Shown: positions 990 to 64,000 of the stretch, one piece after another
Numbering within the stretch: the stretch's first letter is position 1
Layout: each line of letters starts with the position of its first letter
NCBI RefSeq assembly: GCF_000506985.1
Contig: NZ_KI650979.1
Location: 1,054,001-1,118,000 of the forward strand
Length of the DNA: 64,000 nucleotides
Reading direction: 5' to 3'
DNA from: Advenella kashmirensis W13003
GTDB taxonomy: Bacteria; Pseudomonadota; Gammaproteobacteria; Burkholderiales; Burkholderiaceae_B
Notes under the pieces: model-generated
Told to the model about the DNA's origin: nothing
Seen by the model: the letters and a program-made list of their open reading frames with translations, nothing else
The model's database searches: none
Position numbers and translations under genes: made by a program

Positions 990-2072
990 ATGGCCTCTCT
1001 GCTCGTTACCGGTGGCGCCGGATTTATCGGAGCCAACTTCGTTCATTACTGGCTGGCGCAGCACCCCGACGACACGCTGGTCGTGCTGGATGCACTCACC
1101 TATGCGGGCAACAGGGAGAACCTGGCGGAACTGGATGCGCGTCAGAATTTCACTTTTGTGCACGGCAACATTACCAATACCGACAAGGTCATTGCCCTGC
1201 TGCGGCAGCACCGCATTGATACGATCGTGCATTTTGCCGCGGAAAGCCACGTGGACCGCTCCATCCAGGGTCCCGATACGTTCATCCAGACCAATATTAC
1301 CGGCACTTACAGCCTGCTCAAGGCCGCCCGCCAGGTGTGGATCGAGGCGCCGGCACTGCAGAATAAGCCTGCCTTGCCGCATCGTTTCCATCATGTCAGC
1401 ACCGACGAAGTGTTTGGCAGCCTGCAGGCAGACCAGCCGGCCTTTACCGAAAACACTGCGTACGCGCCCAATTCACCGTATTCAGCCAGCAAAGCGGCAG
1501 CCGATCATTTGGTACGCGCCTTCAACCAGACGTATGGACTGGCCACCACGCTCAGCCGCTGTTCAAACAACTACGGCCCCTATCATTACCCCGAAAAACT
1601 GATCCCGCTGGCACTGACCCATATCCTGCACGATAAAACCATTCCGGTTTTCGGCGATGGCCGGCAAATCCGCGACTGGCTGTATGTGCTCGATCATATT
1701 CGCGCAATCGAAACCATTCTCCTGCGAGGCAAAGCCGGCGATACCTGGAATATCGGCGCCCGTTGCGAATTGACGAATATTCAGGTGCTGCACACGCTGT
1801 GTCGTGTCATGGACGAGGCCTTTGCCACGCAACCACAATTGCGGCAGCGCTTTCCGCTGGCCAGGGCCGCGCGCGCGGGACAATCAACCTCCCTGATTCG
1901 TCATGTGCAGGACCGGCCGGGGCATGATCGCCGCTATGCCATTGATCCTGCAAAAATCGAGCGGGAACTGGATTTTGTCGCGCACGAGCCGTTTGACTCG
2001 GGGATTGTCAAGACAGTAGCATGGTTTCTTGACAATGAATCGTGGTGGCGCACGGCGCTATCACAGACGTAA
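990..2072 (+). CDS. rfbB: dTDP-glucose 4,6-dehydratase
   Basis: This 360-residue extended SDR protein has the NAD-binding motif TGGAGFIG at residues 7-14. The RmlB catalytic trio TDE lies at 138-140 and the YSASK (YxxxK) motif at 164-168. It removes water from dTDP-glucose to give dTDP-4-keto-6-deoxyglucose, the substrate of the divergently encoded RfbC. The C-terminal half keeps the family sequences FGDGRQIRDWLYV and DRPGHDRRYAID. It is convergent with the DUF1501 gene, leaving 38 bp in which I see no clear terminator. Full length and intact. Confidence 0.95.
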   Translation: MASLLVTGGAGFIGANFVHYWLAQHPDDTLVVLDALTYAGNRENLAELDARQNFTFVHGNITNTDKVIALLRQHRIDTIVHFAAESHVDRSIQGPDTFIQTNITGTYSLLKAARQVWIEAPALQNKPALPHRFHHVSTDEVFGSLQADQPAFTENTAYAPNSPYSASKAAADHLVRAFNQTYGLATTLSRCSNNYGPYHYPEKLIPLALTHILHDKTIPVFGDGRQIRDWLYVLDHIRAIETILLRGKAGDTWNIGARCELTNIQVLHTLCRVMDEAFATQPQLRQRFPLARAARAGQSTSLIRHVQDRPGHDRRYAIDPAKIERELDFVAHEPFDSGIVKTVAWFLDNESWWRTALSQT

Positions 2073-2110
2073 TAGGCCGGGCTTTGAGGCAGGCCGAGTT
2101 AACGCCCGCA

Positions 2111-3304
2111 TCAGATCATCTTGATTGCAGACGCTTTGGACGACGGGAACACTTTCTGCACTTGCTCATTATTCAGCCCATAAATTTCTTTGAACAGACC
2201 ACCGAGCACATCCCGTGAATTGTTCAGCACCTTGTAATCACGTTCTTCATTCAGCGCCGCAATGCTGACGTCGGTTTGTTCGCCCAGAATTTTACCGCCG
2301 TTGATCGCGCCCCCCAGCACCCAGTGCACCGAACCGTGGCCGTGGTCCGTTCCGCCACTGCCATTTTCACGAAACGTTCGGCCGAACTCGGACATCACAT
2401 ACACCACGGTTTTGTTCCACTGCGGGCCCATTTCGTCGGCAAAGGTTTTCAGACCACTGCCCAGGTTTTTGAACTGATTGGCCAGCATTCCGCTGGCGCC
2501 ACCCTGACTATAATGGGTATCCCAGTTACCAATATCCAGAAAACCCAGGCTGTACTTGTCTTTCATCAACGAGGCCATGCGTTTGACCTGCAGATCAAAC
2601 CCTTTGGCGCTGACTGCATTTCTGCTGGCGGCTTCCTTCTCTTTCTCAAACTCCTCCAGCATCATTCTATGGTTGGCTACGCCTTCGGCGACAATCTCCT
2701 CCTGTTTGCTGTTTTTGTACAGATCTTCCAGCAGGGATATTTGATTATCTCTGAACACCGACTTGCCTGATCCGCTCAGACCAATCAGGGGAATGCGGGC
2801 GGGCCCCTGCATGATGAGCGGGTTGTTGTTGGTGAATGAAACGGGCTGCGCCTTTGCGCCCAGAACGGTGGCTAGCCGGTTCAGGAACCCCGTCCCGTAA
2901 GCGCGTTTACCATTGGCCGGTTGCCCGCTCTCCATCAGGTCCTGCGTCTCGAAATGGCTGCGGGACAAATCGGCAGTACCCGCAAAGGGAATGAATGCAA
3001 TCTGCTTTTTCTCCCAAAGCGGCATCAGCGTTTTCTGAAAGACCGGGTGCATGCCCCAGTGATTGTCCAGCTTGAGCGCTGCGTCTTGCGCACTGCCGGG
3101 CTGGGCAATAGCGATACGCGGGCGATTTTCGTAATAATCGTCACTGGTGTAGGGCACCAGAAAATTACAGGCGTCATAGGCGCCGCGCAGGAAAATAACC
3201 AGCGTTTTGATATCCGTGCTTTCGGCAGCAAACAACTGGTGGCTATTGACCGTGAGCGGCGCCAGCATGGCGGTCGCCAGGAAATCACGTCGGTTCATGT
3301 TCAT
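2111..3304 (-). CDS. DUF1501 family exported protein
   Basis: The 397-residue protein starts with MNMNRRDFLATAMLAPL, a twin-arginine signal (RRDFL), so it is probably exported folded by Tat. DUF1501 proteins belong to the alkaline-phosphatase/sulfatase-like superfamily. Family-like segments visible here are VIFLRGAYDACNFLVPY near the N-terminus, LDIGNWDTH in the middle and MSEFGRTFRENGSGGTDHG near residue 310. The ATG at 3304 overlaps the stop of the upstream DUF1800 gene as ATGA, so translation is probably coupled. A GGGAG stands upstream. A longer start at 3358 would remove the signal and overlap the upstream gene by 58 bp. The biochemical role of DUF1501 proteins is not established; the pairing with DUF1800 is recurrent. 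Confidence 0.85.
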   Translation of the reverse strand: MNMNRRDFLATAMLAPLTVNSHQLFAAESTDIKTLVIFLRGAYDACNFLVPYTSDDYYENRPRIAIAQPGSAQDAALKLDNHWGMHPVFQKTLMPLWEKKQIAFIPFAGTADLSRSHFETQDLMESGQPANGKRAYGTGFLNRLATVLGAKAQPVSFTNNNPLIMQGPARIPLIGLSGSGKSVFRDNQISLLEDLYKNSKQEEIVAEGVANHRMMLEEFEKEKEAASRNAVSAKGFDLQVKRMASLMKDKYSLGFLDIGNWDTHYSQGGASGMLANQFKNLGSGLKTFADEMGPQWNKTVVYVMSEFGRTFRENGSGGTDHGHGSVHWVLGGAINGGKILGEQTDVSIAALNEERDYKVLNNSRDVLGGLFKEIYGLNNEQVQKVFPSSKASAIKMI

Positions 3305-12804: not shown

Positions 12805-13170
12805 TTATTTCTTCAGTGATTGTGCTGAACGACGTGGGCCCTTGCGTGTGCGTGCGTTAGTACGTGTGCGCTGACCGCGAACGGGCAAACCACGTTTGTG
12901 ACGCAGACCACGGTATGTACCCAGGTCAATCAGACGTTTAATCGAAAGTTGTACTTCACGACGCAAATCACCCTCGACTGTGAACTGACCAACCTGTTCA
13001 CGGATTTTTTCGAGTTCTGCATCTGTCAGATCTTTCACTTTCTTGTCAAAAGCCACACCGGCTGTTTCGCAGATTTTGCGAGAGCGTGTGCGTCCAATGC
13101 CAAAAATAGCGGTCAGACCGATTTCTGCATGTTGATGCGGCGGAATGTTAATGCCAGCTATACGGGCCAT
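12805..13170 (-). CDS. rpsM: 30S ribosomal protein S13
   Basis: The 121-residue protein begins [19 protein letters not shown] and carries the C-terminal tail [19 protein letters not shown], which contacts tRNA and the head of the 30S subunit. It is the first gene of the classical alpha operon and follows rpmJ by 31 bp. Confidence 0.98.
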
Positions 13171-13201
13171 GTCTGTTCCTCGTTAAATCGATGCACCAGG
13201 A

Positions 13202-13315
13202 TTAACCCTGACGCTGCTTGTGACGTGGATCTGTACAAATTACTCGTACAACTCCGTGTCGTTTAATGATCTTGCAATGACGGCAGATCTTTTTTACCGA
13301 TGCCATTACCTTCAT
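13202..13315 (-). CDS. rpmJ: 50S ribosomal protein L36
   Basis: This 37-residue protein lies in the gap between infA and rpsM. It reads [14 protein letters not shown]... and ends ...DPRHKQRQG. The zinc-ribbon residues (Cys 11, Cys 14, Cys 27 and His 32 in this numbering) are all present, so it is the zinc-binding form. The start at 13315 follows GGAGT by a short spacer. L36 is the smallest large-subunit protein and normally stands at exactly this place, between secY/infA and rpsM. Confidence 0.96.
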
Positions 13316-19492: not shown

Positions 19493-19524
19493 TGTTTGAT
19501 GAAGTATATATACTTCATCAAACA
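19493..19524. repeat. Palindrome 1 upstream of the abiEi-like gene (32 bp, perfect)
   Basis: The left half TGTTTGATGAAGTATA is followed directly by its exact reverse complement, so all 16 base pairs match. The centre GAAGTATATATACTTC is shared with palindrome 2 and nearly with palindrome 3. The outer arm TGTTTGAT is not shared. An AT-rich TATATTATAAA stretch lies just to the right (19530-19540) and could be a -10 region for the plus-strand gene. Confidence 0.85.
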
Positions 19525-19571
19525 CCGTTTATATTATAAAACATCGCGGAATGGGTACGAACCGAATAGCC

Positions 19572-19609
19572 AGGGAGAGAATGAAGTATATATACTTCAT
19601 TCTCTCCCT
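19572..19609. repeat. Palindrome 2 upstream of the abiEi-like gene (38 bp, perfect)
   Basis: The left half AGGGAGAGAATGAAGTATA is followed at once by its exact reverse complement, giving 19 matched pairs. It has the same core GAAGTATATATACTTC as palindrome 1 but a wholly different, purine-rich outer arm. It would form a very stable hairpin if transcribed, or a cruciform in supercoiled DNA. Confidence 0.85.
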
Positions 19610-19639
19610 CTTGTGCCCATTTCCTTAGGTGGCATGGTA

Positions 19640-19667
19640 TTCTAGGATGTATATATACTTCCTAGAA
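19640..19667. repeat. Palindrome 3 abutting the abiEi-like start codon (28 bp, one mismatched pair)
   Basis: Arms TTCTAGGA (19640-19647) and TCCTAGAA (19660-19667) flank the core TGTATATATACT. One pair (19648/19659) does not match. It ends 5 bases before the GTG at 19673, so repressor binding or an RNA hairpin here would directly block transcription or translation of the gene. Confidence 0.8.
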
Positions 19668-19672
19668 CGCTG

Positions 19673-20563
19673 GTGAATAAAGTGGCTGTTTCCCGTATTC
19701 AAATCGCCAAGTCCGACATACTGAATGCCTTGGATCAGGGCGTACCGGTTCTGAAGCTTTCCGACCTGAAAATGCTTCTGTCCAATCAGCGGAGCTTTTG
19801 GCGCCTGGCAAAAAGCACGACCACGCAAGACTTCATTGAATTTCTCAAGAAACAGGGTAAGTTAAGGGAATATCACTTCCCCTTCCCCCACCGCAAGGAA
19901 ACCCGCTACGTCTGGGGAGAACAGCCGTTACTGAATATTCTCCAAACGCTACGCCCGAACAGCTATTTTAGTCACTATACGGCTATGCGAATGCATGGGT
20001 TGACCGAACAAATCCCCAAAACGATCTATATCAATCACGAGCAGCATTTGAAAAGCCAATCGTCGGGCGCACTCGAGCAAACCAACATCGACACGGCCTT
20101 CAGTCGCCAGCCCCGAATCTCCAATAATGTCATTGAGTTTGAAGGTAATCGCATCTATTTGCTGAACGGTAAAAATACCGGCCAGCTCGGCGTTATCAAC
20201 GAGCCGATGAATGATGAAGAGGGTCAGCAGGTCCTCGTTCGCGTCACCGGCGTCGAACGGACTTTGATTGATATTACAGTGCGTCCCGTTTATTCCGGGG
20301 GAGTCTATGAGGTACTAAAGGCATTTACACTGGCAAAGGAACAGGTCTCAGTCAACGCCCTAATAAGTATGCTGAAAAAAATTAATCATATTTATCCTTA
20401 CCATCAGGCGATCGGATTTTATCTGGAACGCGCCGGTTACCGGTCCTCACTTCTGGACTTGGTCAGACGGCTGCCTATTGAGTACGATTTTTATTTAGAC
20501 AATAAAATGCAGGATATGGAATATGTGAAGGCATGGCAACTATATATTCCGAAAGGCCTTTAA
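19673..20563 (+). CDS. AbiEi-like antitoxin / transcriptional regulator
   Basis: A 296-residue protein starting with GTG at 19673. A second GTG at 19682 has a better GGTGA site and may be the true start. The N-terminus (about 15-75) looks like a winged helix: LDQGVPVLKLSDLKMLL, then DFIEFLKKQGKL. The centre has SYFSHYTAMRMHGLTEQIP and VERTLIDITVRPVYSGG. Both are patterns of AbiEi-type antitoxins (TA type IV), where RTL.D and GG.EV.KA are typical. AbiEi proteins bind inverted repeats and repress their own operon. Three palindromes directly upstream fit that. The toxin-like gene is convergent, with a 24-bp tail overlap, not downstream in the same operon. Base composition is more AT-rich than that of its neighbours. 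Confidence 0.68.
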   Translation: MNKVAVSRIQIAKSDILNALDQGVPVLKLSDLKMLLSNQRSFWRLAKSTTTQDFIEFLKKQGKLREYHFPFPHRKETRYVWGEQPLLNILQTLRPNSYFSHYTAMRMHGLTEQIPKTIYINHEQHLKSQSSGALEQTNIDTAFSRQPRISNNVIEFEGNRIYLLNGKNTGQLGVINEPMNDEEGQQVLVRVTGVERTLIDITVRPVYSGGVYEVLKAFTLAKEQVSVNALISMLKKINHIYPYHQAIGFYLERAGYRSSLLDLVRRLPIEYDFYLDNKMQDMEYVKAWQLYIPKGL

Positions 20564-21424
20564 GCGATTCACCAGCCCCACAGTGAAGTCAAAATAGAAA
20601 TCAAAGCTTTCCAAGCTTACGCCAGGCGGGACAGTGTTCTGCACAGAAGGAAAATCCGGTCTGTGAAACTCCCGTTGCCCGGTGATCCTGTCCAGAAATG
20701 CCAAGTCTACCCTTTTACACTCGAACATTTCCGTGAGAATGTGATGCGCATGATCAGACACTAAGTCCAAATTCAGCAGTGTCACCAATTGGTAAATGTC
20801 GTAAAAATCTCGTGCTCTCGCACTCCCCGCCCGGGCCCTTTTGACCACAGGGCCATACTCCGGCATCTGTTGGCAAATAGCCCGAAGTTTTTCGCAAACA
20901 ATCATAAGGGGCGAATAGACGTAAATGATGTATCCATCAAAATCGTGAGCAACGCGGTCATTGACATATTCATGGCGACTGATGTCGATGAGGAATTTTT
21001 GCCCTTGCCCCACTCGCAAAGCATGCTTGCGAAGTAAATCCTGATCGCCTGAATGGTTGGCGAAAAAATCTGAGGGTACGAGCTTGAACTCAATTTTATA
21101 CCCGCCCCAGAAATCTTCGACGTCTACCGACAGCGTTTCCGGTCTACAGTGAAATTTGAAATCAAAAACCTGGTATCCATGCTGTTTAAATGTGTGCGTT
21201 AATGTCCGCTCTGCACGTTGCGCCAAATTCGCACTACCGCCTGGAAAATCAGCCTTCATTGAAAAATCGATATCGATCGACGCACGCGCCACAATATGAT
21301 GAATCAGCTCTATCGCGTTCCCACCCTTCAAAATGAGATGTTCAAAAAGCTCATCATCGGAAATAATGGCAGTAATTACCCACTTTTTTATGTGATCTAA
21401 CGTGATGCCCTGAATATTCACCAT
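20540..21424 (-). CDS. AbiEii/AbiGii-family nucleotidyltransferase toxin-like protein
   Basis: The 294-residue protein starts at the ATG at 21424; a TTG at 21430 is also in frame. LKGGNAIELIHH (residues 32-43) and SIDIDFSM (49-56) form the nucleotidyltransferase signature: GG, then the metal-binding D-x-D at 51 and 53. ARDFYDIYQL (about 211-220) is the conserved DFYD segment of the AbiEii/AbiGii family. Such proteins are GTP- or NTP-using toxins or phage-defence effectors that modify tRNA or other targets. It is tail-to-tail with the AbiEi-like gene, overlapping 24 bp at the 3' ends. No good ribosome-binding site precedes the ATG, so expression may be weak. I see no strong promoter in the 111 bp to the next gene. 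Confidence 0.72.
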   Translation of the reverse strand: MVNIQGITLDHIKKWVITAIISDDELFEHLILKGGNAIELIHHIVARASIDIDFSMKADFPGGSANLAQRAERTLTHTFKQHGYQVFDFKFHCRPETLSVDVEDFWGGYKIEFKLVPSDFFANHSGDQDLLRKHALRVGQGQKFLIDISRHEYVNDRVAHDFDGYIIYVYSPLMIVCEKLRAICQQMPEYGPVVKRARAGSARARDFYDIYQLVTLLNLDLVSDHAHHILTEMFECKRVDLAFLDRITGQREFHRPDFPSVQNTVPPGVSLESFDFYFDFTVGLVNRLKAFRNI

Positions 21425-21535
21425 AAACAAAAAACGTACTGAAAATGATAGTCCTGACGGCGAATCATCCTAATACAATACGCTGGCTGGCGGAACTACC
21501 CGGTGTAGCAGTCCCTACGCAATTTTGTCTACCGG

Positions 21536-55950: not shown

Positions 55951-57360
55951 TTACGCATGCCAGGATACCAGTTTGCCCGGATTAAAAATATTGTTCGGGT
56001 CATAGGCATGCTTGATCAGCCGCATCAATTCCAGCGCGTCCTCGCCATGCTCTTCTTTGAGGAAGGCCATTTTATGGATGCCGACGCCATGCTCACCCGA
56101 GCAGGTGCCATCCATGCGAATGGCGCGTGACACCAGCCGGCGGTTGATGTCCTCGGACATTTCCCATTCTTCGCGGCTGTCGGGATCAATCAGCATTTGC
56201 ACATGAAAATTGCCATCGCCCACATGACCGACGATGGTGTATGGAAACGGCATGCCTTCGAGTTCCTGCGCCGTCTCGCTGACACATTCGGCCAGGCGTG
56301 AAATCGGCACGCAAACGTCGGTGGCCACCGAGCGGGAACCGGGGCGCAACTGCAGCCCTGAATAATGCGAGTTATGACGGGCCGTCCACAGGCGCTTGCG
56401 GTCTTCCGATTTTTCTGCCCATTCAAAGTCCATGCCGCCATTGTCCCGGGCGATCTCCTGCACAATTTCGGCCTGCTCGCGCACGCCGGTTTCGCTTCCA
56501 TGGAATTCAAACAGCAGCAGCGGAGTCTCTTTGAGCGTCAGTTTGCTGTAGGCATTGACGGCCTTGACCGCACGCGTATCCATGAACTCAACCCGGGCAA
56601 TGGCCACGCCCGACTGCATGATTTCAATCACCGACTGCACTGCGCTTTCCAGTGTCGGGAAATTACAGATGGCGGCCGTCACGGCTTCAGGCTGCGGATA
56701 GACCCGGACTGTGATTTCAACAATGATGCCCAGCGTTCCTTCGCTACCAACGAACAGGCGTGTCAGGTCATAGCCTGAAGATGACTTGCGTGCGCGACTG
56801 CTGGTGCGAATGACTTTGCCGCCGGCGGTCACCACCTTCATGGAGACGACGTTTTCACGCATGGTACCGTAGCGCACGGCGTTGGTTCCCGAGGCCCGGG
56901 TACTGGTCATGCCACCGATGGAGGCGTGGGCGCCGGGATCGATCGGGAAAAACAGGCCCGTATGGCGGATTTCATCGTTCAGCTGAGTACGAATGACGCC
57001 CGGCTGCACTGTGACCGTAAAATCTTCGGCATTGATCGCCAGCACTTTGTTCATTTCGCTGAAGTCCAGCGTAATGCCGCCTTCGATAGGCAGCACATGG
57101 CCTTCAAGCGAAGAACCGATGCCAAATGGAATCACCGGCACTTTGTGTTGATTACAGATGTTGACGGCAGCAACCACTTCTTCTGTATCACGGGGAAAAA
57201 TGACGGCTTCGGGCGGGCAGACGGGATAGGGAGATTCGTCGGTGCCGTGGTGTTCACGTACGGCCATGGAGGTGATAAACCGTTCGCCGAAGCGATCCCG
57301 AAAGGCCGTAACGGCTGCATCGGAAAGGGTACGTACAGGTTGTTGATCCAGAACTGTCAT
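55951..57360 (-). CDS. GlcD-like FAD-binding oxidoreductase (D-lactate/2-hydroxy-acid dehydrogenase)
   Basis: The 469-residue protein starts at the ATG at 57360; an upstream start at 57390 is not family-like. The PCMH-type FAD domain has PRDTEEVVAAVNICNQHKVPVIPFGIGSSLEGH (in parts) and GGMTSTRASGTNAVRYGTM. The C-terminal domain ends HVGDGNFHVQMLIDP and SGEHGVGIHKMAFL, where the His residues bind metal or substrate in D-lactate dehydrogenases. It oxidises a D-2-hydroxy acid and may pass electrons to the respiratory chain. Confidence 0.92.
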   Translation of the reverse strand: MTVLDQQPVRTLSDAAVTAFRDRFGERFITSMAVREHHGTDESPYPVCPPEAVIFPRDTEEVVAAVNICNQHKVPVIPFGIGSSLEGHVLPIEGGITLDFSEMNKVLAINAEDFTVTVQPGVIRTQLNDEIRHTGLFFPIDPGAHASIGGMTSTRASGTNAVRYGTMRENVVSMKVVTAGGKVIRTSSRARKSSSGYDLTRLFVGSEGTLGIIVEITVRVYPQPEAVTAAICNFPTLESAVQSVIEIMQSGVAIARVEFMDTRAVKAVNAYSKLTLKETPLLLFEFHGSETGVREQAEIVQEIARDNGGMDFEWAEKSEDRKRLWTARHNSHYSGLQLRPGSRSVATDVCVPISRLAECVSETAQELEGMPFPYTIVGHVGDGNFHVQMLIDPDSREEWEMSEDINRRLVSRAIRMDGTCSGEHGVGIHKMAFLKEEHGEDALELMRLIKHAYDPNNIFNPGKLVSWHA

Positions 57361-57441
57361 CGTTATCTCGCTGCCCTGCCTGTGGTCCAAGACCTGCAGG
57401 CAGGGCGTCAGTCAATATCAATAAATGAATAATATGCGTGT

Positions 57442-59226
57442 TCAATGATTATCGCGCGATTCGCCCCGGGTTTCGATAATATCCACATAGGCGGTCGCCG
57501 CTTCCAGGCAGGCGCCATCTCCTTGCTGGCCGACCATGCCGCGGTAGATTTCCTCCCACGGCGTCATGTTCAGCAGCTCGGGTTTGACCCAGGCAGCCCG
57601 TCGTTGCGCCAGCTCTTCATCGGAGATCAACACGTCGACACGACAGGTATTCAGATCCACCCTCACGGTATCGCCGGTACGCAACAAGGCCAGGCCACCA
57701 CCCACGGCAGACTCGGGCGAGACATTCAGAATGGATGGGCTGGCCGAGGTGCCGCTTTGCCTGCCATCGCCCATGGTGGGAAGGGTATCGATGCCTTTAT
57801 TGAGCAGATAGGCCGGCGGTTGCATATTGACCACCTCGGCCCCGCCCGGGTAGCCGACCGGCCCGCTATTGCGGATCACCAGAATGGATTGTTCATCAAT
57901 GCCCAGCGCCGGGTCTTCAATACGATCGTGATAATCCTCGGGCCCTTCGAAGACAAAGGCCTTCAGATCCATCACATTCGGATGGGCCGGATTCGACAGG
58001 AAACGCGCACGGAATTTTTCGTCAATCACACTTGTCTTGATGACCGCGTTGTCAAACAGATTGCCACTCAGCACCACATAGCCAGCGGCCTCTTTCAGCG
58101 GACTGGCGTAGGCGCGGATGACTTCGCGATCCGGTTCAGTCACGGCGGTCAGGTTGTCGGCCAGGGTTTTACCCGTGACTGTCATGACGTCTCCATTGAC
58201 CTTGCCTGCGTCCAGCAACTCTTTCATCACCGCAGGTACACCCCCGGCACGATGAAACGACTCACCCAGGAAGCGCCCTGCCGGCTGGCAATCGACCAGC
58301 AACGGGATTTGCGGCCCCAGGCGCTGCCAGTCTGCAAGCGTGTGATTCACACCCATATGACGCGCGATCGCTACCATATGGATCGGGCAGTTGGACGACC
58401 CCCCCAGCGCCGCCGCTGCCACGACCGCGTTTTCAAAGGCAGCCTGGGTCATGATGTCCGACGGACGCAGGTTTTCACGCACCATATCCACAATGCGGCG
58501 ACCCGTTTCATAGGCCATCCAGCCCCGTTCACGGTATGGGCCCGGAATAGCGGCGCAGCCCGGCAGGGACATGCCCAGCGCTTCGGCCAGCGAATTCATG
58601 GACAGCGCCGTACCCATGGTGTTGCAATGGCCCACTGAGGGTGCGGACGAGGCCACATTGTTCATGAACTCTTCGTAACCGATTTCCCCGGCCGACAGGC
58701 GCTTGCGCGCATCCCAGACCACCGTGCCGGAACCGGCCAGCTTGCCTTTCCACCAACCGTCCAGCATGGGGCCGCCGGACAGGACAATGGCGGGAATATT
58801 GACAGTGGCCGCCGCCATCAGGCAGGCGGGCGTTGTTTTATCGCAGCCGGTCGTGAGCACGACACCGTCCAGCGGATAGCCGTGCAGGACCTCCACCAAT
58901 CCCAGATACGCCAGGTTGCGGTCGAGGGCTGCGGTCGGCCGCTTGCCTGTTTCCTGAATAGGATGGACCGGAAACTCCAGCGGAATGCCGCCCATATCAC
59001 GAATGCCATCGCGCACCCGTGTGGCCAGGTCCATGTGATGACGATTGCAAGGAGACAGATCAGAACCCGTCTGGGCAATGCCGATAATCGGCTTGCCCGA
59101 TTGCAGCTCCTCCCTGGTAATACCGTAATTCATATACCGCTCGATATACAGAGCGGTCATGCCGGGGTTCGCAGGGTTGTCAAACCACCGGCGACTGCGC
59201 AAGGGCTTTTTTTCGGACGAAGACAT
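57442..59226 (-). CDS. IlvD/Edd-family dehydratase, sugar-acid dehydratase type
   Basis: The 594-residue protein has the Fe-S cysteines of the family in DLSPCNRHH (near residue 59), [14 protein letters not shown] and [13 protein letters not shown], plus the C-terminal [19 protein letters not shown]. The [28 protein letters not shown] start (in parts) is that of the arabonate/xylonate/galactonate dehydratase branch, not of dihydroxy-acid dehydratase. It removes water from an aldonic acid to give a 2-keto-3-deoxy acid for the aldolase encoded downstream. Its substrate cannot be set by eye. Confidence 0.92.
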
Positions 59227-59258: not shown

Positions 59259-60278
59259 TTAAGCGCCGGACGCTTTTTTGGCCGCCTCAAGCACGCCTTC
59301 GACGGTTTCCTTGCCGATTTTCGCTTTCAGGCTTTCAACAATCGGCGCGACTTTTTCACGGATTTTCTCTTTTTCCTCGGTTGAAAATTCGGCCACCTTC
59401 ACATCATGCTCCTTCAGATATTTGAGCGCGTCCTCATTGCCCTGCCGGCTGGCCTTGCGCTGAAATGCCTGACTGTCTGCGGCTGCCTGTGTAATCACGT
59501 CTTTTTCATCCTGAGAGAGCTTATCGAACCATTTTTTCGAGGCCAGGAACACGAACGGCGTATAAACGTGATTGGACAGCGTCAGGTAAGGCTGGACTTC
59601 ATAAAATTTGCTGGTCTGGATAGTTGACAGCGGATTCTCCTGACCATCTACTGTTTTGGTTTCGAGCGCAGTGAACAATTCAGTGAAGGGCATCGGAATC
59701 GCATTGGCGCCCAGGCCCTTGAACACGCTCAACGCCACCTGGTTCTGCATGACCCGCAGCTTGATGCCGTTGATATCATCGAGCTTGGAAATCTCGTGAC
59801 GGGAATTGGTGATATTGCGAAAACCGTTTTCCCAGTAGTTCAGACCGATCAAACCCTTGGCAGGCAGTTTGTCCAGCAGTTTTTTGCCTTCCGGGCCATC
59901 CAGCACGGCATCGGCTACTTTTTCATTGTCAAACAAAAACGGCAGATCGAAGACGCCGAACTCGGGGATCAGGCTGGCTATCGGCGCGGTCGACACAAAC
60001 GTGATTTCGCCAGAACCGCTGATCAGAGAATTGATAAGTTGTTCATCGGGTCCCAACGCGCCATTGCCGAAAGTCTTGACCTTCATTTTGCCATCACTGA
60101 GTTTATCGACTACTTCGGCAAAATGCGCCGATGCTTTGCCGGTGGGGCTGTCATCGGCCAGACCGTAGCCGAAGCGGATAATGCGCGGCTTGATATCCTT
60201 GGCCCAGACCGCCGCAGAACTCATGCCCAATAGCGCTACGGCTGTCAGGCCAACCATCGTCTTTTTCAAAGTCTTCAT
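59259..60278 (-). CDS. dctP: TRAP transporter substrate-binding protein DctP
   Basis: The 339-residue exported protein has a signal peptide (about 1-26, VWA-KDI). DctP patterns are RFGYGLADDSPTGKASAHFAE, GDEITF-like GSGEITFVSTAPIASLIPEF, the carboxylate-binding Arg in INGIKLRVMQN and MPFTELFTALETKTVDGQENP. It binds an organic acid, probably the sugar acid used by this operon, and feeds DctQ/DctM. It lies 30 bp after dctM and 32 bp before the dehydratase gene. Confidence 0.93.
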   Translation of the reverse strand: MKTLKKTMVGLTAVALLGMSSAAVWAKDIKPRIIRFGYGLADDSPTGKASAHFAEVVDKLSDGKMKVKTFGNGALGPDEQLINSLISGSGEITFVSTAPIASLIPEFGVFDLPFLFDNEKVADAVLDGPEGKKLLDKLPAKGLIGLNYWENGFRNITNSRHEISKLDDINGIKLRVMQNQVALSVFKGLGANAIPMPFTELFTALETKTVDGQENPLSTIQTSKFYEVQPYLTLSNHVYTPFVFLASKKWFDKLSQDEKDVITQAAADSQAFQRKASRQGNEDALKYLKEHDVKVAEFSTEEKEKIREKVAPIVESLKAKIGKETVEGVLEAAKKASGA

Positions 60279-60308: not shown

Positions 60309-61589
60309 TCAGTAGAACCAGTTCATTGGTACAGTGACAATCTGCGGAAAAATCACAAGCAACAGAATCAACAGCGTATAGGCGGCTACATATGGCCATA
60401 CGCCTTTGATGATGTCTTCCATGCGGATGCGGGCAACGCCGCATACCACGTTCAGCACGGTGCCCACCGGCGGGGTCAGCAGGCCGGCGCAGCCGACCAT
60501 GATGAAAATCACCCCGAAATAGGTCGGATCAATACCCGCTTCCTTGATCACCGGCATCAGCACCGGCGCCAGGATCAGGATAGTCGGCGTCAGATCCATG
60601 GCGGTGCCCACCAGCGTGAGTAGAATCACCAGCACGATCATGAGAAGCGTAGGTGAGTCGACCAGGGGCCCGAGCATGGCGATAAGTTCTTTGGGCAGAT
60701 CGGCCAGCGTAATCATGTAGGACGTGACCAGGGCTGCTGCCACCAGAAACATGACCACACTTGTGGTCGTGGCCGCGTTGACCAACAGCTTCATCAAATC
60801 GCGCGGTTTGATTTCGCGATAGACCACCATACCGACGAACAGCGCGTAAACAGCCGCAACCGCCGCCGCTTCGGTCGGCGTGAAGATACCAAAGCGCAGG
60901 CCGCCGATGATAATCACCGGCAAGACCAGCGCCCACCCCGATTCGCGCAAGGCCTTCATGCGGACGGACCAGGGCTCTTTGGGGAAAGGCTTGAAACTGG
61001 TGGAGCGGCGCGCCACAAATGTCCACACCATGACCAGTGTCAGGCCCATCAACAGCCCCGGTACGATGCCGGCCATGAACAGTTTGGTGACCGAGATATT
61101 GGTGGCCACACCGAAAATGATGAATGAAATGGACGGCGGGATAATAGGGGCGATGATGCCGCCGGCTGCGATCAGGCCGCAGGACTGTTTCAGGTCATAG
61201 CCGCGATTGCGCAACATAGGCACCAGCATGGCCGCCAGGGCGGCAGAATCGGCCACGGCCGAACCCGATAGCGCGGCCAGCAATACACTTGCCATAATCG
61301 CAACGTAACCCAGCCCGCCGTGAACGTGTCCCACCAGCGTACTGGCCAGAGCAACCATGCGGCGCGACATTCCACCGGCGTTCATGGCTTCGCCAGCCAG
61401 CATGAAGAGCGGCACAGCCATCAGCGAAAAGTTGTCCGCTCCGGCCAGCATATTCTGCGCAAGAATCTGGACATCAAAAAAATCCAGATAGAACATCAGG
61501 CCAATGGCGGAGAGCAGCAGGGCAAAGGCGATGGGCATGCCAAATGCCATAAAGCCGAGCAGCACGGAAAGAAAAATAGTGACTGTCAT
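60309..61589 (-). CDS. dctM: TRAP transporter large permease DctM
   Basis: The 426-residue protein starts at 61589 (MTVTIFLSVLLGFMAFGMPIAFAL); an extension to 61664 would overlap dctQ. About 12 membrane segments. VPLFMLAGEAMNAGGMSRRMV, GSAVADSAALAAMLVPML and GCAGLLTPPVGTVLNVVCGVARI are DctM signatures. It is the ion-coupled channel of the TRAP system. Order on the strand is dctQ, dctM, dctP. Confidence 0.94.
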   Translation of the reverse strand: MTVTIFLSVLLGFMAFGMPIAFALLLSAIGLMFYLDFFDVQILAQNMLAGADNFSLMAVPLFMLAGEAMNAGGMSRRMVALASTLVGHVHGGLGYVAIMASVLLAALSGSAVADSAALAAMLVPMLRNRGYDLKQSCGLIAAGGIIAPIIPPSISFIIFGVATNISVTKLFMAGIVPGLLMGLTLVMVWTFVARRSTSFKPFPKEPWSVRMKALRESGWALVLPVIIIGGLRFGIFTPTEAAAVAAVYALFVGMVVYREIKPRDLMKLLVNAATTTSVVMFLVAAALVTSYMITLADLPKELIAMLGPLVDSPTLLMIVLVILLTLVGTAMDLTPTILILAPVLMPVIKEAGIDPTYFGVIFIMVGCAGLLTPPVGTVLNVVCGVARIRMEDIIKGVWPYVAAYTLLILLLVIFPQIVTVPMNWFY

Positions 61590-61608
61590 GTTTGTTTCCT
61601 GTTGCCCG

Positions 61609-62166
61609 TTATTCCATATCGTCGACAGTGTCGACGGCCGTTCTGAAACGATATTGATAGGCACGATCGGCCGGCGTCATGATGGCAATGGCGATATCGC
61701 CAATCGCCAGCAGGAACATGGCAATTGCACTGAACCATACCATTCCGCTGAACAGCGCCTGCGACCACCCCGTGACCGGCAAAGACGTGTTGACGCCGAT
61801 GACCATCTGGTCCCAGCCGCCGTCCATCAGCAACCACAGTACCCACATGATGATGAGCTGGCGCAGGATATGAATGATTTTCTGGATCATGACCGGCATG
61901 CGGTCCAGCAGCATATTGATGCCCAAATGCTGTTTGGTGCGAAAGGCGATGACCGTACCCAGAAAAATCAGCCAGACAAAAGACAGGCGCGCGACCTCTT
62001 CAGATACAGTAATACCTGAGTTGAAGCCGTAGCGTAGCACAACGTTGCCGAACACTAGCAACAGCATGACCACTACGCAAAGCCCCAGTACATAGGTCAG
62101 GACTTTCTCGATGGCATGGGTCAGGGTGACCGCCGACCGGAAAAACGGACTTTCCAGTATCGTCAT
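61609..62166 (-). CDS. dctQ: TRAP transporter small permease DctQ
   Basis: The 185-residue protein has four membrane segments and the RLSFVWLIFLGTVIAFRTKQHLGINML stretch (in parts) between the second and third, typical for DctQ. It partners DctM. A remarkable 20-bp inverted repeat lies just upstream (62224-62275), between this gene and the SDR gene. Confidence 0.92.
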   Translation of the reverse strand: MTILESPFFRSAVTLTHAIEKVLTYVLGLCVVVMLLLVFGNVVLRYGFNSGITVSEEVARLSFVWLIFLGTVIAFRTKQHLGINMLLDRMPVMIQKIIHILRQLIIMWVLWLLMDGGWDQMVIGVNTSLPVTGWSQALFSGMVWFSAIAMFLLAIGDIAIAIMTPADRAYQYRFRTAVDTVDDME

Positions 62167-62223
62167 TGAATATCTCCTTTATATTTCAAATGTCATGCCG
62201 CTTCTGGCTGCATGCATTCCTTT

Positions 62224-62275
62224 TCTTTTCCGTGCAATGATGAACTTTGTAAAGATCATCATTGCACGGAAAAGA
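62224..62275. repeat. Long perfect inverted repeat between the SDR gene and dctQ
   Basis: The arms 62224-62243 and 62256-62275 match over all 20 pairs (TCTTTTCCGTGCAATGATGA against its complement), with a 12-base loop that can itself pair CTTT with AAAG. Transcribed on the minus strand, it gives a very stable hairpin between two genes of one operon. It has no T-run, so simple termination is unlikely. An mRNA-stability or processing element is one option, a dimeric-regulator site another. Confidence 0.75.
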
Positions 62276-62291
62276 TGACACGGCCATATCG

Positions 62292-63044
62292 TCAATAGGT
62301 GGCGCGACCACCTGACAAATCAAATACTGCGCCGGTACTGAAAGCACATTCTTCCGACGCCAGCCAGCAAATCATGGATGCAGCCTCGTCCACATGCAAA
62401 AAACGCTTCATGGGAATCCGCGACAACATATAGTCGATATGCTCCTGCGACATGGAATCGAAAATTTCTGTCCTTGCCGCCGCTGGCGTAATGGCGTTGA
62501 CCAGAATGTTGCGTTCAGCCAGTTCCTTGCCCAGCGACTTGGTCAAACCGATCAGGCCCGCCTTGGAAGCGCTGTAGTGTGAGGCGTTCGGGTTACCTTC
62601 CTTGCCGGCAATCGAGGCAATATTCACGATGCGACCATAGCCGTTTTTGAGCATGGCGGGCACCAATGCGCGGCAGGTGTAATATGGTGCCATCAAATTG
62701 GTCTGAACCACCTGTTGCCAAACGACCGGATCCAGTTCCCACGTGACGCCGTTGCCGCCGGTAATGCCGGCATTGTTGACCAGAATGTCCACCTTGCCAT
62801 GCTGCTGCAGCGTATCCTCGGCAGCCTTTTCTACAGCCCGCAGATCACTCAGGTCAAGTGTGTGCGTGCTGACGGCTCCCAATTCACCCAACTGCTGAGC
62901 GGCCTGCGCCAGCCGGTCCGCATCCAGATCCCACAGGGCGACTGTCGCTCCCGAGGCGAGCATACGCCTGGCAGCAGCAAAGCCGATACCGCGCGCGCCC
63001 CCGGTAATGACGGCAACGCGATTTTGCAAACTGTTCTGACTCAT
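62292..63044 (-). CDS. SDR-family 3-ketoacyl-reductase-like/sugar dehydrogenase
   Basis: The 250-residue classical SDR has TGGARGIGFA (residues 15-24), NNAGITGG, the active Ser in NIASIAGKEGN and YSASK. The FabG-like pattern fits many sugar, polyol and sugar-acid dehydrogenases; in this operon oxidation of the growth substrate is the likely role. It lies between an Ldh-family gene (18-bp gap) and dctQ (125-bp gap with a large hairpin). Confidence 0.87.
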   Translation of the reverse strand: MSQNSLQNRVAVITGGARGIGFAAARRMLASGATVALWDLDADRLAQAAQQLGELGAVSTHTLDLSDLRAVEKAAEDTLQQHGKVDILVNNAGITGGNGVTWELDPVVWQQVVQTNLMAPYYTCRALVPAMLKNGYGRIVNIASIAGKEGNPNASHYSASKAGLIGLTKSLGKELAERNILVNAITPAAARTEIFDSMSQEHIDYMLSRIPMKRFLHVDEAASMICWLASEECAFSTGAVFDLSGGRATY

Positions 63045-63062
63045 TCCTTATCCTTGTCTCAT

Positions 63063-64000
63063 TTATAGTGTGACTGGCATGGCGATGCCATATTTGTCTG
63101 CGCTGGCTGCAAGCAGTGGTGTAATAGACGAATGCAGAACCACGCCATGTTTTTTCTGTTCCTCATACAACGCCAGGCCGCGATCGCCCGGCATGCGGAC
63201 ATTGTCAATGCCCTCACGCGGCGGATTGTTGCGGCAGGCATCGGCAATCCAGTCCATCTGGCGTATAAATGCCTCGTTACCGCCGAATGCTGATGGATCG
63301 TACAGGCTGATGAATACCGTCGCGCCCCAGCCCTTGACGTTATCGGCGCGACCATGACCCGCCAGGCCACCGGTCAGCGCTTCAATGAGCAGTGCCAGAC
63401 CAAACCCCTTGTGGCCGACAGACAACCCCCCCAGCGGCAGAATGGTGCCTGGCGGATCCTGCGTCAGCACTGCCGGGTCTCGCGTGGGTTTGCCTTTGCC
63501 GTCTATCAGCCATTCCTCGTCGAACTGTTTGCCTTCTTTTGCCAGGCGCGCACTCATGCCATTTGTGGTAATGGACGCAGAGATATCCACCAGGAACGGC
63601 GAGGCCGACGGTATGCCGATTGCAATCGGATTGGGCGTGAACACGGCGCGCGTGCCGCCGAACGGCGCGACACTCTGGCCAGCCGGATCGGAGCAACTGA
63701 GCACTATCAGCATGTTCTCGCGTACGGCGCGCAACAGGTAGCTTGCGAGGCAGGCAATGTGGTGGCTTTGGCGAATGACCGCCGTTGCCGTGCCATACTC
63801 CCGGGCTCGAGGTACCAGCGCGTCAATGGCCTGGTTGACCAGCCAGGGACCTGGCAGACGTTTGCCATCCAGCAGCAGCGATGCGCCTTTATCGGAAAGC
63901 ACATCAGCCGTACCCTGCTTTGTCATCTGTCCCTGTTCAAGCTGATTCAGGTACGGATTGAGCAAGGCCAGGCCGTGCGTGGTATGACCCAGCAAATCGC
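63063..64000 (-). CDS. Ldh-family oxidoreductase, 5' end beyond the right edge
   Basis: At least 311 residues are present; the frame is open to base 64000 and begins with DLLGHTTHGLALL, which in the family lies about 40 residues from the N-terminus. IRQSHHIACLASYLL holds the catalytic His. FGGTRAVFTPNPIAIGIPS and LVDISASITTNGMSARLA are Ldh_2 patterns. It is a second, clearly different paralogue of the protein at 54074. Being the first gene seen of the train, it is probably near the operon start outside the window. Confidence 0.87.
   Translation of the reverse strand, partial: DLLGHTTHGLALLNPYLNQLEQGQMTKQGTADVLSDKGASLLLDGKRLPGPWLVNQAIDALVPRAREYGTATAVIRQSHHIACLASYLLRAVRENMLIVLSCSDPAGQSVAPFGGTRAVFTPNPIAIGIPSASPFLVDISASITTNGMSARLAKEGKQFDEEWLIDGKGKPTRDPAVLTQDPPGTILPLGGLSVGHKGFGLALLIEALTGGLAGHGRADNVKGWGATVFISLYDPSAFGGNEAFIRQMDWIADACRNNPPREGIDNVRMPGDRGLALYEEQKKHGVVLHSSITPLLAASADKYGIAMPVTL

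Follow-up and report, generated by a model that had tools for sequence, protein, structure and literature searches.

A 20-bp perfect inverted repeat lies between a short-chain dehydrogenase/reductase (SDR) gene and dctQ in a sugar-acid operon of Advenella kashmirensis W13003 that encodes a tripartite (TRAP) transporter. Here we report a comparative analysis of this repeat (hereafter referred to as H1), which, on sequence comparison, is a position-conserved element of the genus Advenella, a hairpin being predicted at this place in all six Advenella genomes in which the operon was found. The best reading, by analogy with known intercistronic hairpins, is that H1 would set different mRNA levels for the two parts of the operon, and we put at about one half the probability that it is an intercistronic processing or 3′-protection hairpin of the malE–malF kind. 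Comparison of the arms with those of the congeners further suggests that the exceptional perfection of H1 in this genome probably arose by template switching from one arm to the other.

Gene order around the repeat

The 64,000-nt stretch of DNA analysed here (the window) carries at its 3′ end an operon-like run of minus-strand genes. In the direction of transcription these encode an Ldh_2 malate/L-lactate dehydrogenase family protein, whose gene runs off the window (63063–63998; PF02615), the SDR-family dehydrogenase that forms the upstream side of the junction (62292–63044; PF00106), the TRAP small permease DctQ on its downstream side (61609–62166; PF04290), the large permease DctM (60309–61589; PF06808), the solute-binding protein DctP (59259–60278; PF03480), an IlvD/EDD-family dehydratase (57442–59226; PF00920 and NF009560) and a GlcD-like FAD-linked oxidase (55951–57390; PF02913 and PF01565), for which the best NCBIfam match, glcD, falls below its cut-off. 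The DctM start is the probable one, as the predicted open reading frame (ORF) extends to 61664 and the ortholog alignment begins at ORF residue 22–23 in six of seven Advenella rows. The FAD oxidase gene is followed by more minus-strand genes, seen as ORFs only, and the same strand beyond the window carries TctA and TctC transporter genes, an FAA hydrolase, a GntR/FCD regulator and a PfkB kinase.

The SDR–dctQ gap (62167–62291, minus strand) comprises 125 nt and is the widest in the seven-gene run that starts with Ldh_2 and ends with the FAD oxidase gene, the other five junctions measuring 18–51 nt with the DctM start placed as above. Its length alone means little, because a longer gap of 191 nt occurs further down the cluster. 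The likely ribosome-binding site of dctQ, AAAGGAG, was read from the sequence at 62174–62180 (minus strand), and GGAGAT is present there in all six genomes.

Sequence and predicted fold of H1

The arms of H1 (62224–62243 and 62256–62275) are perfectly complementary over 20 bp and are separated by 12 nt, exactly as the sequence-only reading of the window had placed them. Past one mismatch inward, three more pairs close a 4-nt loop, TACA in the minus-strand RNA, so that the whole hairpin spans 62224–62275 on that strand; a repeat search of the window reports the arms as 25 nt at 96% identity. We folded the minus strand, which is the coding strand of the adjoining operon genes. A 101-nt region around the repeat has a predicted free energy of −41.3 kcal/mol (z = −6.5), and the whole 125-nt gap one of −49.0 kcal/mol (z = −7.6), and in neither case did any of 200 shuffled sequences fold as well.

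In a 464-kb sample consisting of the window and 20 stretches of 20 kb, with loops of 3–24 nt allowed, there were four perfect stems of at least 17 bp, among which H1 is the second longest; H1 is thus unusual in this genome, although it is not the only stem of its kind. Two further long perfect hairpins from the sample, of 21 and 17 bp (L162, 5063–5108; L150, 12065–12102), likewise lack a U-tract, and each is located between co-directional predicted ORFs or at their edge.

Single-copy, non-terminator character of H1

The sequence-only reading had described a long hairpin between co-directional genes that splits the two dehydrogenase genes from the TRAP transporter, had judged that without a T-run it was not an ordinary terminator, and had offered, as an alternative to a regulatory role, the footprint of a small repeat element. 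The setting and the argument against a terminator both stand: no terminator-like site was predicted in 61900–62700, the stem is not followed by a T-run on either strand, and a Rho-independent terminator is rejected for a stem that has no U-tract. The repeat element does not survive the genome-wide search. An 18-nt arm probe allowing up to three mismatches found six matches in the 4.85-Mb genome, namely the two arms themselves and four sites with three mismatches, the closest of which lies at a distance of about 12 kb, and a single copy was found in the source genome by a covariance model built on the gap; together these results rule out a REP-like or otherwise dispersed repeat. In nine congeners, the same probe matched only sites with two or three mismatches.

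The H1 region matched no Rfam family at its gathering score. With the threshold relaxed to an E-value of 5, there were 15 matches in 61500–63500, all below gathering and mostly to microRNA and snoRNA models scoring on hairpin shape; the model for the cis-regulatory gltS RNA, with a gathering score of 47.5 bits, reached 23.1 (E = 2.5). A plasmid- or phage-borne hairpin was likewise rejected, as blastn of the 101-nt region against 72,556 plasmid and 50,697 phage records returned one partial match in each set, with E-values of 0.2 and 0.9, respectively, both at chance level. The gap contains one promoter-like match on the minus strand (62196–62169), where 1.0 is expected in shuffled sequences, and separate transcription of dctQ from this site is conceivable.

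Positional conservation of H1 within Advenella

A DNA search of 61 genomes (the source genome and 60 relatives) yielded eight matches. The match extends across the junction in the source genome and in five of the nine other Advenella genomes, and two further genomes (G010 and G045) match the SDR sequence only; in the four Advenella genomes without the junction, a search for dctQ at an E-value of 1e-40 gave no match. The gaps of the five congeners are 113–117 nt long and contain, in the place of H1, a shorter hairpin with the same TACA loop and a largely different stem, formed by about 8–10 bp and a further 2–4 bp around an internal loop. The stem of about 20 bp is thus confined to the window copy among the six genomes, and the fold of the gap in the congeners is modest relative to shuffles (z from −0.4 to −2.5).

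Across the six-genome alignment, H1 pairing is kept in 89.4% of cells, compared with 82.2% in shuffled alignments, a level reached by 1 of 500 shuffles. Double-sided changes occur at 5 of 15 pairs (again reached by 1 of 500), and 13 of 500 shuffles had at least as many further pair types. All five double changes distinguish the window from its congeners; there is none among the five congeners, where shuffles do as well. Between the window and G005, 12 of the 20 core stem positions differ and 9 of the 10 core pairs are kept, which has a probability of 0.0015 under random substitution matched to the observed number of changes per arm. For comparison, four-fold degenerate sites are 43–56% identical between the window and the congeners, and 43–77% across the six genomes. 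A stem that has changed while its pairing was kept favours, on this alignment, a conserved structure rather than a sequence-specific operator; the covariation could also come from template switching between the arms without selection.

A covariance model of the gap, searched against ten genomes, found one copy in each of the six genomes and a match in G002 at an E-value of 0.26, which we took as chance. Since the model was built from the six, their scores are high by construction, and what the search adds is the absence of further copies.

A second hairpin, conserved in sequence, near the dctQ start

A second, small hairpin (H2; 62188–62219, minus strand) lies 5′ of the dctQ ribosome-binding site. 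Its sequence is nearly invariant, with the core CATGCAGCCAGAAGC, and is the most sequence-conserved block of the gap: 16 of its 22 columns are invariant in the six genomes, compared with 39 of the 178 four-fold degenerate sites in the genes on either side (binomial value 5e-7, which is optimistic, as the block was picked after being seen). Its pairing is kept in 96.7% of cells, with covariation no higher than in shuffles (251 of 500 as high), and the 19-nt core has one exact copy in the source genome, the next best site having two mismatches. Short reading frames cross H2, one of which ends on the dctQ start codon in four of the six genomes (G005, G009, G007 and G001); in the window and G006 it stops earlier, and no good ribosome-binding site was seen before it. 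As regards a conserved leader peptide over H2, the short frames shift their start or stop between genomes. A structure, an RNA-binding site and a coding sequence are all candidates for what has been kept in H2.

The junction outside Advenella

We examined 26 non-Advenella loci, of which 2 came from a set of 80 loci and 24 were the non-Advenella members of 30 loci fetched; these 30 were drawn from 66 matching genomes in a search of 268. An orthologous SDR (67–70% identity) lies directly upstream of dctQ at six loci (L024, L025, L108, L110, L111 and L114), which represent four distinct genomes, as a 1-kb stretch of L024 recurs verbatim in L110 and one of L025 in L114. Three of the four, Allopusillimonas ginsengisoli (L024), Alcaligenaceae bacterium CGII-56 (L025) and L108, have SDR–dctQ gaps of 13–21 nt. 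H1 is therefore not needed for the operon as such, because these genomes share the gene order but leave too little space for the hairpin. In L111, the fourth genome, the gap is of Advenella-like length (113 nt) and folds no better than shuffles (z = −0.70 for the gap and −1.29 for its first stem), and this gap may or may not hold a related element. Among the genomes compared, the element as modelled is therefore seen in Advenella alone, and the operon order is wider.

At three other loci (L109, L112 and L113), a different SDR (30–33% identity) precedes dctQ, with gap z-scores of −0.99, +0.75 and −2.41, respectively. In L113, from another genus of the family, the gap at this non-orthologous SDR–dctQ junction (2059–2143, minus strand) forms two hairpins, which are possibly convergent or may reflect an old habit of such junctions. 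At the remaining outgroup loci, the upstream position is taken by a gene of another kind or shows no clear ORF.

Proposed role in differential mRNA decay

The repeat would be transcribed within an Ldh_2–SDR–dctQMP mRNA, assuming that these genes are co-transcribed, and H1 would fold as a stable hairpin just past the SDR stop codon. Endonucleolytic cleavage downstream of H1, at a site that may lie in the A-rich linker preceding H2 or deeper within dctQM, would then expose an upstream fragment whose H1 end is predicted to block 3′-to-5′ exonucleases. The dehydrogenase message (Ldh_2–SDR) may thereby outlast the transporter message, as in malE–malF, with a corresponding effect on their levels, and H2, adjoining the dctQ ribosome-binding site, is probably a 5′-end or translation element for dctQ. 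We favour protection of the Ldh_2–SDR message because the place of H1 after the stop codon, its strong stem, its lack of a U-tract and its kept position fit differential-decay hairpins.

As in the malE–malF type, H1 is a stable hairpin without a U-tract between co-directional genes. As to conservation, a hairpin is in the same place in all six Advenella genomes with the operon and 5 of 15 pairs show double changes, set against weak z-scores in the congeners, the lack of double changes among them and a pattern that template switching could mimic. The malE–malF structure is a REP sequence. The malE–malF case is described by Dar and Sorek (PMC5927463), who also report on Escherichia coli gene pairs whose 5′ gene is stabilised: in 26 of 34 such pairs, a stable hairpin lacking a U-tract sits immediately before the 3′ end, and 17 of these 26 protective hairpins are located within the coding sequence of the downstream gene and not in the gap. 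H1 resembles these hairpins in its stability, its lack of a U-tract, its place at the boundary between operon segments and its kept position in relatives, but it differs from them in being single-copy and not a REP, in that its decay effect is putative and in that most of theirs are embedded in the coding sequence of the downstream gene. Similarly, a study of Clostridium cellulolyticum (PMC4423207) found no U run in 28 of 33 stem-loops located at intergenic processing sites, and a higher upstream-to-flanking transcript ratio where folding was stronger. H1 shares with these selective RNA processing and stabilisation stem-loops an intergenic position at the 3′ end of the upstream gene within an operon; the phylum and the operon are different, and H1 is a putative processing boundary, whereas theirs sit at processing sites. 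Among the open-licence papers searched, we found none on an intercistronic hairpin of a TRAP transporter operon and none on an Advenella stem-loop.

If the protective reading holds, H1 adds a further example to the already known intercistronic protective hairpins, that of a beta-proteobacterial TRAP operon in which an RNA structure sets expression ratios. The genomes compared form a natural series at one junction, from no room for a hairpin through a short stem to a perfect 20-bp stem, and this series suits direct study both of how stem length relates to operon mRNA decay and of template switching in the making of stems.

Origin of the perfect stem and alternative explanations

We hold the protective reading at even odds because template switching weakens the covariation argument. 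The arms in the window look homogenised: GCACGG in the 3′ arm is the mirror of CCGTGC, a 5′-arm sequence found also in three of the five congeners (G005, G007 and G009), and TCTTTT in the 5′ arm mirrors the A-rich 3′ linker. Template switching can both create and maintain stems, according to PMC8794818, and H1 resembles the hairpins made in this way in having homogenised arms and a perfect stem, the features that copying of an arm should leave; in that study the events are placed on reconstructed histories of genes for microRNAs and rRNAs, whereas here the direction of change is not polarised. The five congeners do not polarise the change, because they may form a clade beside the window lineage and there is no outgroup hairpin; the congeners could thus carry the derived state, with stems shortened from a longer ancestor. 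H1 might be a quasi-palindrome that replication template switching has maintained and made perfect, a mutational by-product whose function is slight or absent. The concentration of all double changes in the window lineage and the three of four distinct outgroups with no room for a hairpin both speak for this reading. We regard this as a serious possibility with perhaps a quarter of the weight, since against it the hairpin persists in place with an unchanged loop in six Advenella genomes, despite the four-fold-site divergence given above.

The remaining alternatives assign H1 a different function. RNase III cuts duplexes such as an uninterrupted stem of roughly two helical turns, and the window stem, alone of the six, has this length, so that the enzyme could cleave both of its strands and separate the operon halves, exposing both to decay. 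Stems of about 8–10 bp are, however, shorter than typical RNase III substrates, and such cutting could not be a function shared with the congeners, whose stems are of this size; we consider it unlikely. A more elaborate combination seems to us a shade less probable still: a genus-level two-part RNA element (H1 and H2) would divide the catabolic from the transport genes, and template switching in the window would have turned a short protective stem into a two-turn duplex that is now an RNase III cut site, changing the decay logic of the operon in one step. An attenuator, a conditional (for example, Rho-dependent) terminator or an internal promoter region for dctQMP, perhaps acting with H2 or the short frames, would draw on the sequence conservation of H2, on the short frame that terminates at the dctQ start codon in four of the six genomes and on the promoter-like match, which occurs at chance rate; the lack of a U-tract, the earlier stop of that frame in the window and G006 with no good ribosome-binding site seen before it, and the lack of an Rfam family at gathering score in the region make it quite improbable. 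The dyad symmetry of H1 and the nearby same-strand gene for the GntR/FCD protein, 4.3–5.1 kb beyond the window (L147, 4307–5107), would fit a DNA operator for a dimeric regulator such as this protein. Its 20-bp arms exceed the usual half-sites of regulators, the half-sites are not conserved (12 of 20 core positions differ from G005) and the nearest other arm-like site, about 12 kb away, has three mismatches; we set this reading lowest in likelihood because the stem sequence is not conserved.

Other features of the window

Elsewhere in the window, three palindromes with a GAAGTATATATACTTC-like core lie at 19493–19668, upstream of an ORF (19673–20563) that has no Pfam match and adjoins a minus-strand ORF (20540–21430) matching the AbiEii toxin. 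The exact 20-nt core of the palindromes has two copies, which are the sole ones in the genome at up to two mismatches, and the palindromes may be operators of an abiE-type toxin–antitoxin pair. At 13138–13217, the Rfam Alpha_RBS family (alpha operon ribosome binding site) matches just above its gathering score, near ORFs that look like ribosomal protein genes.
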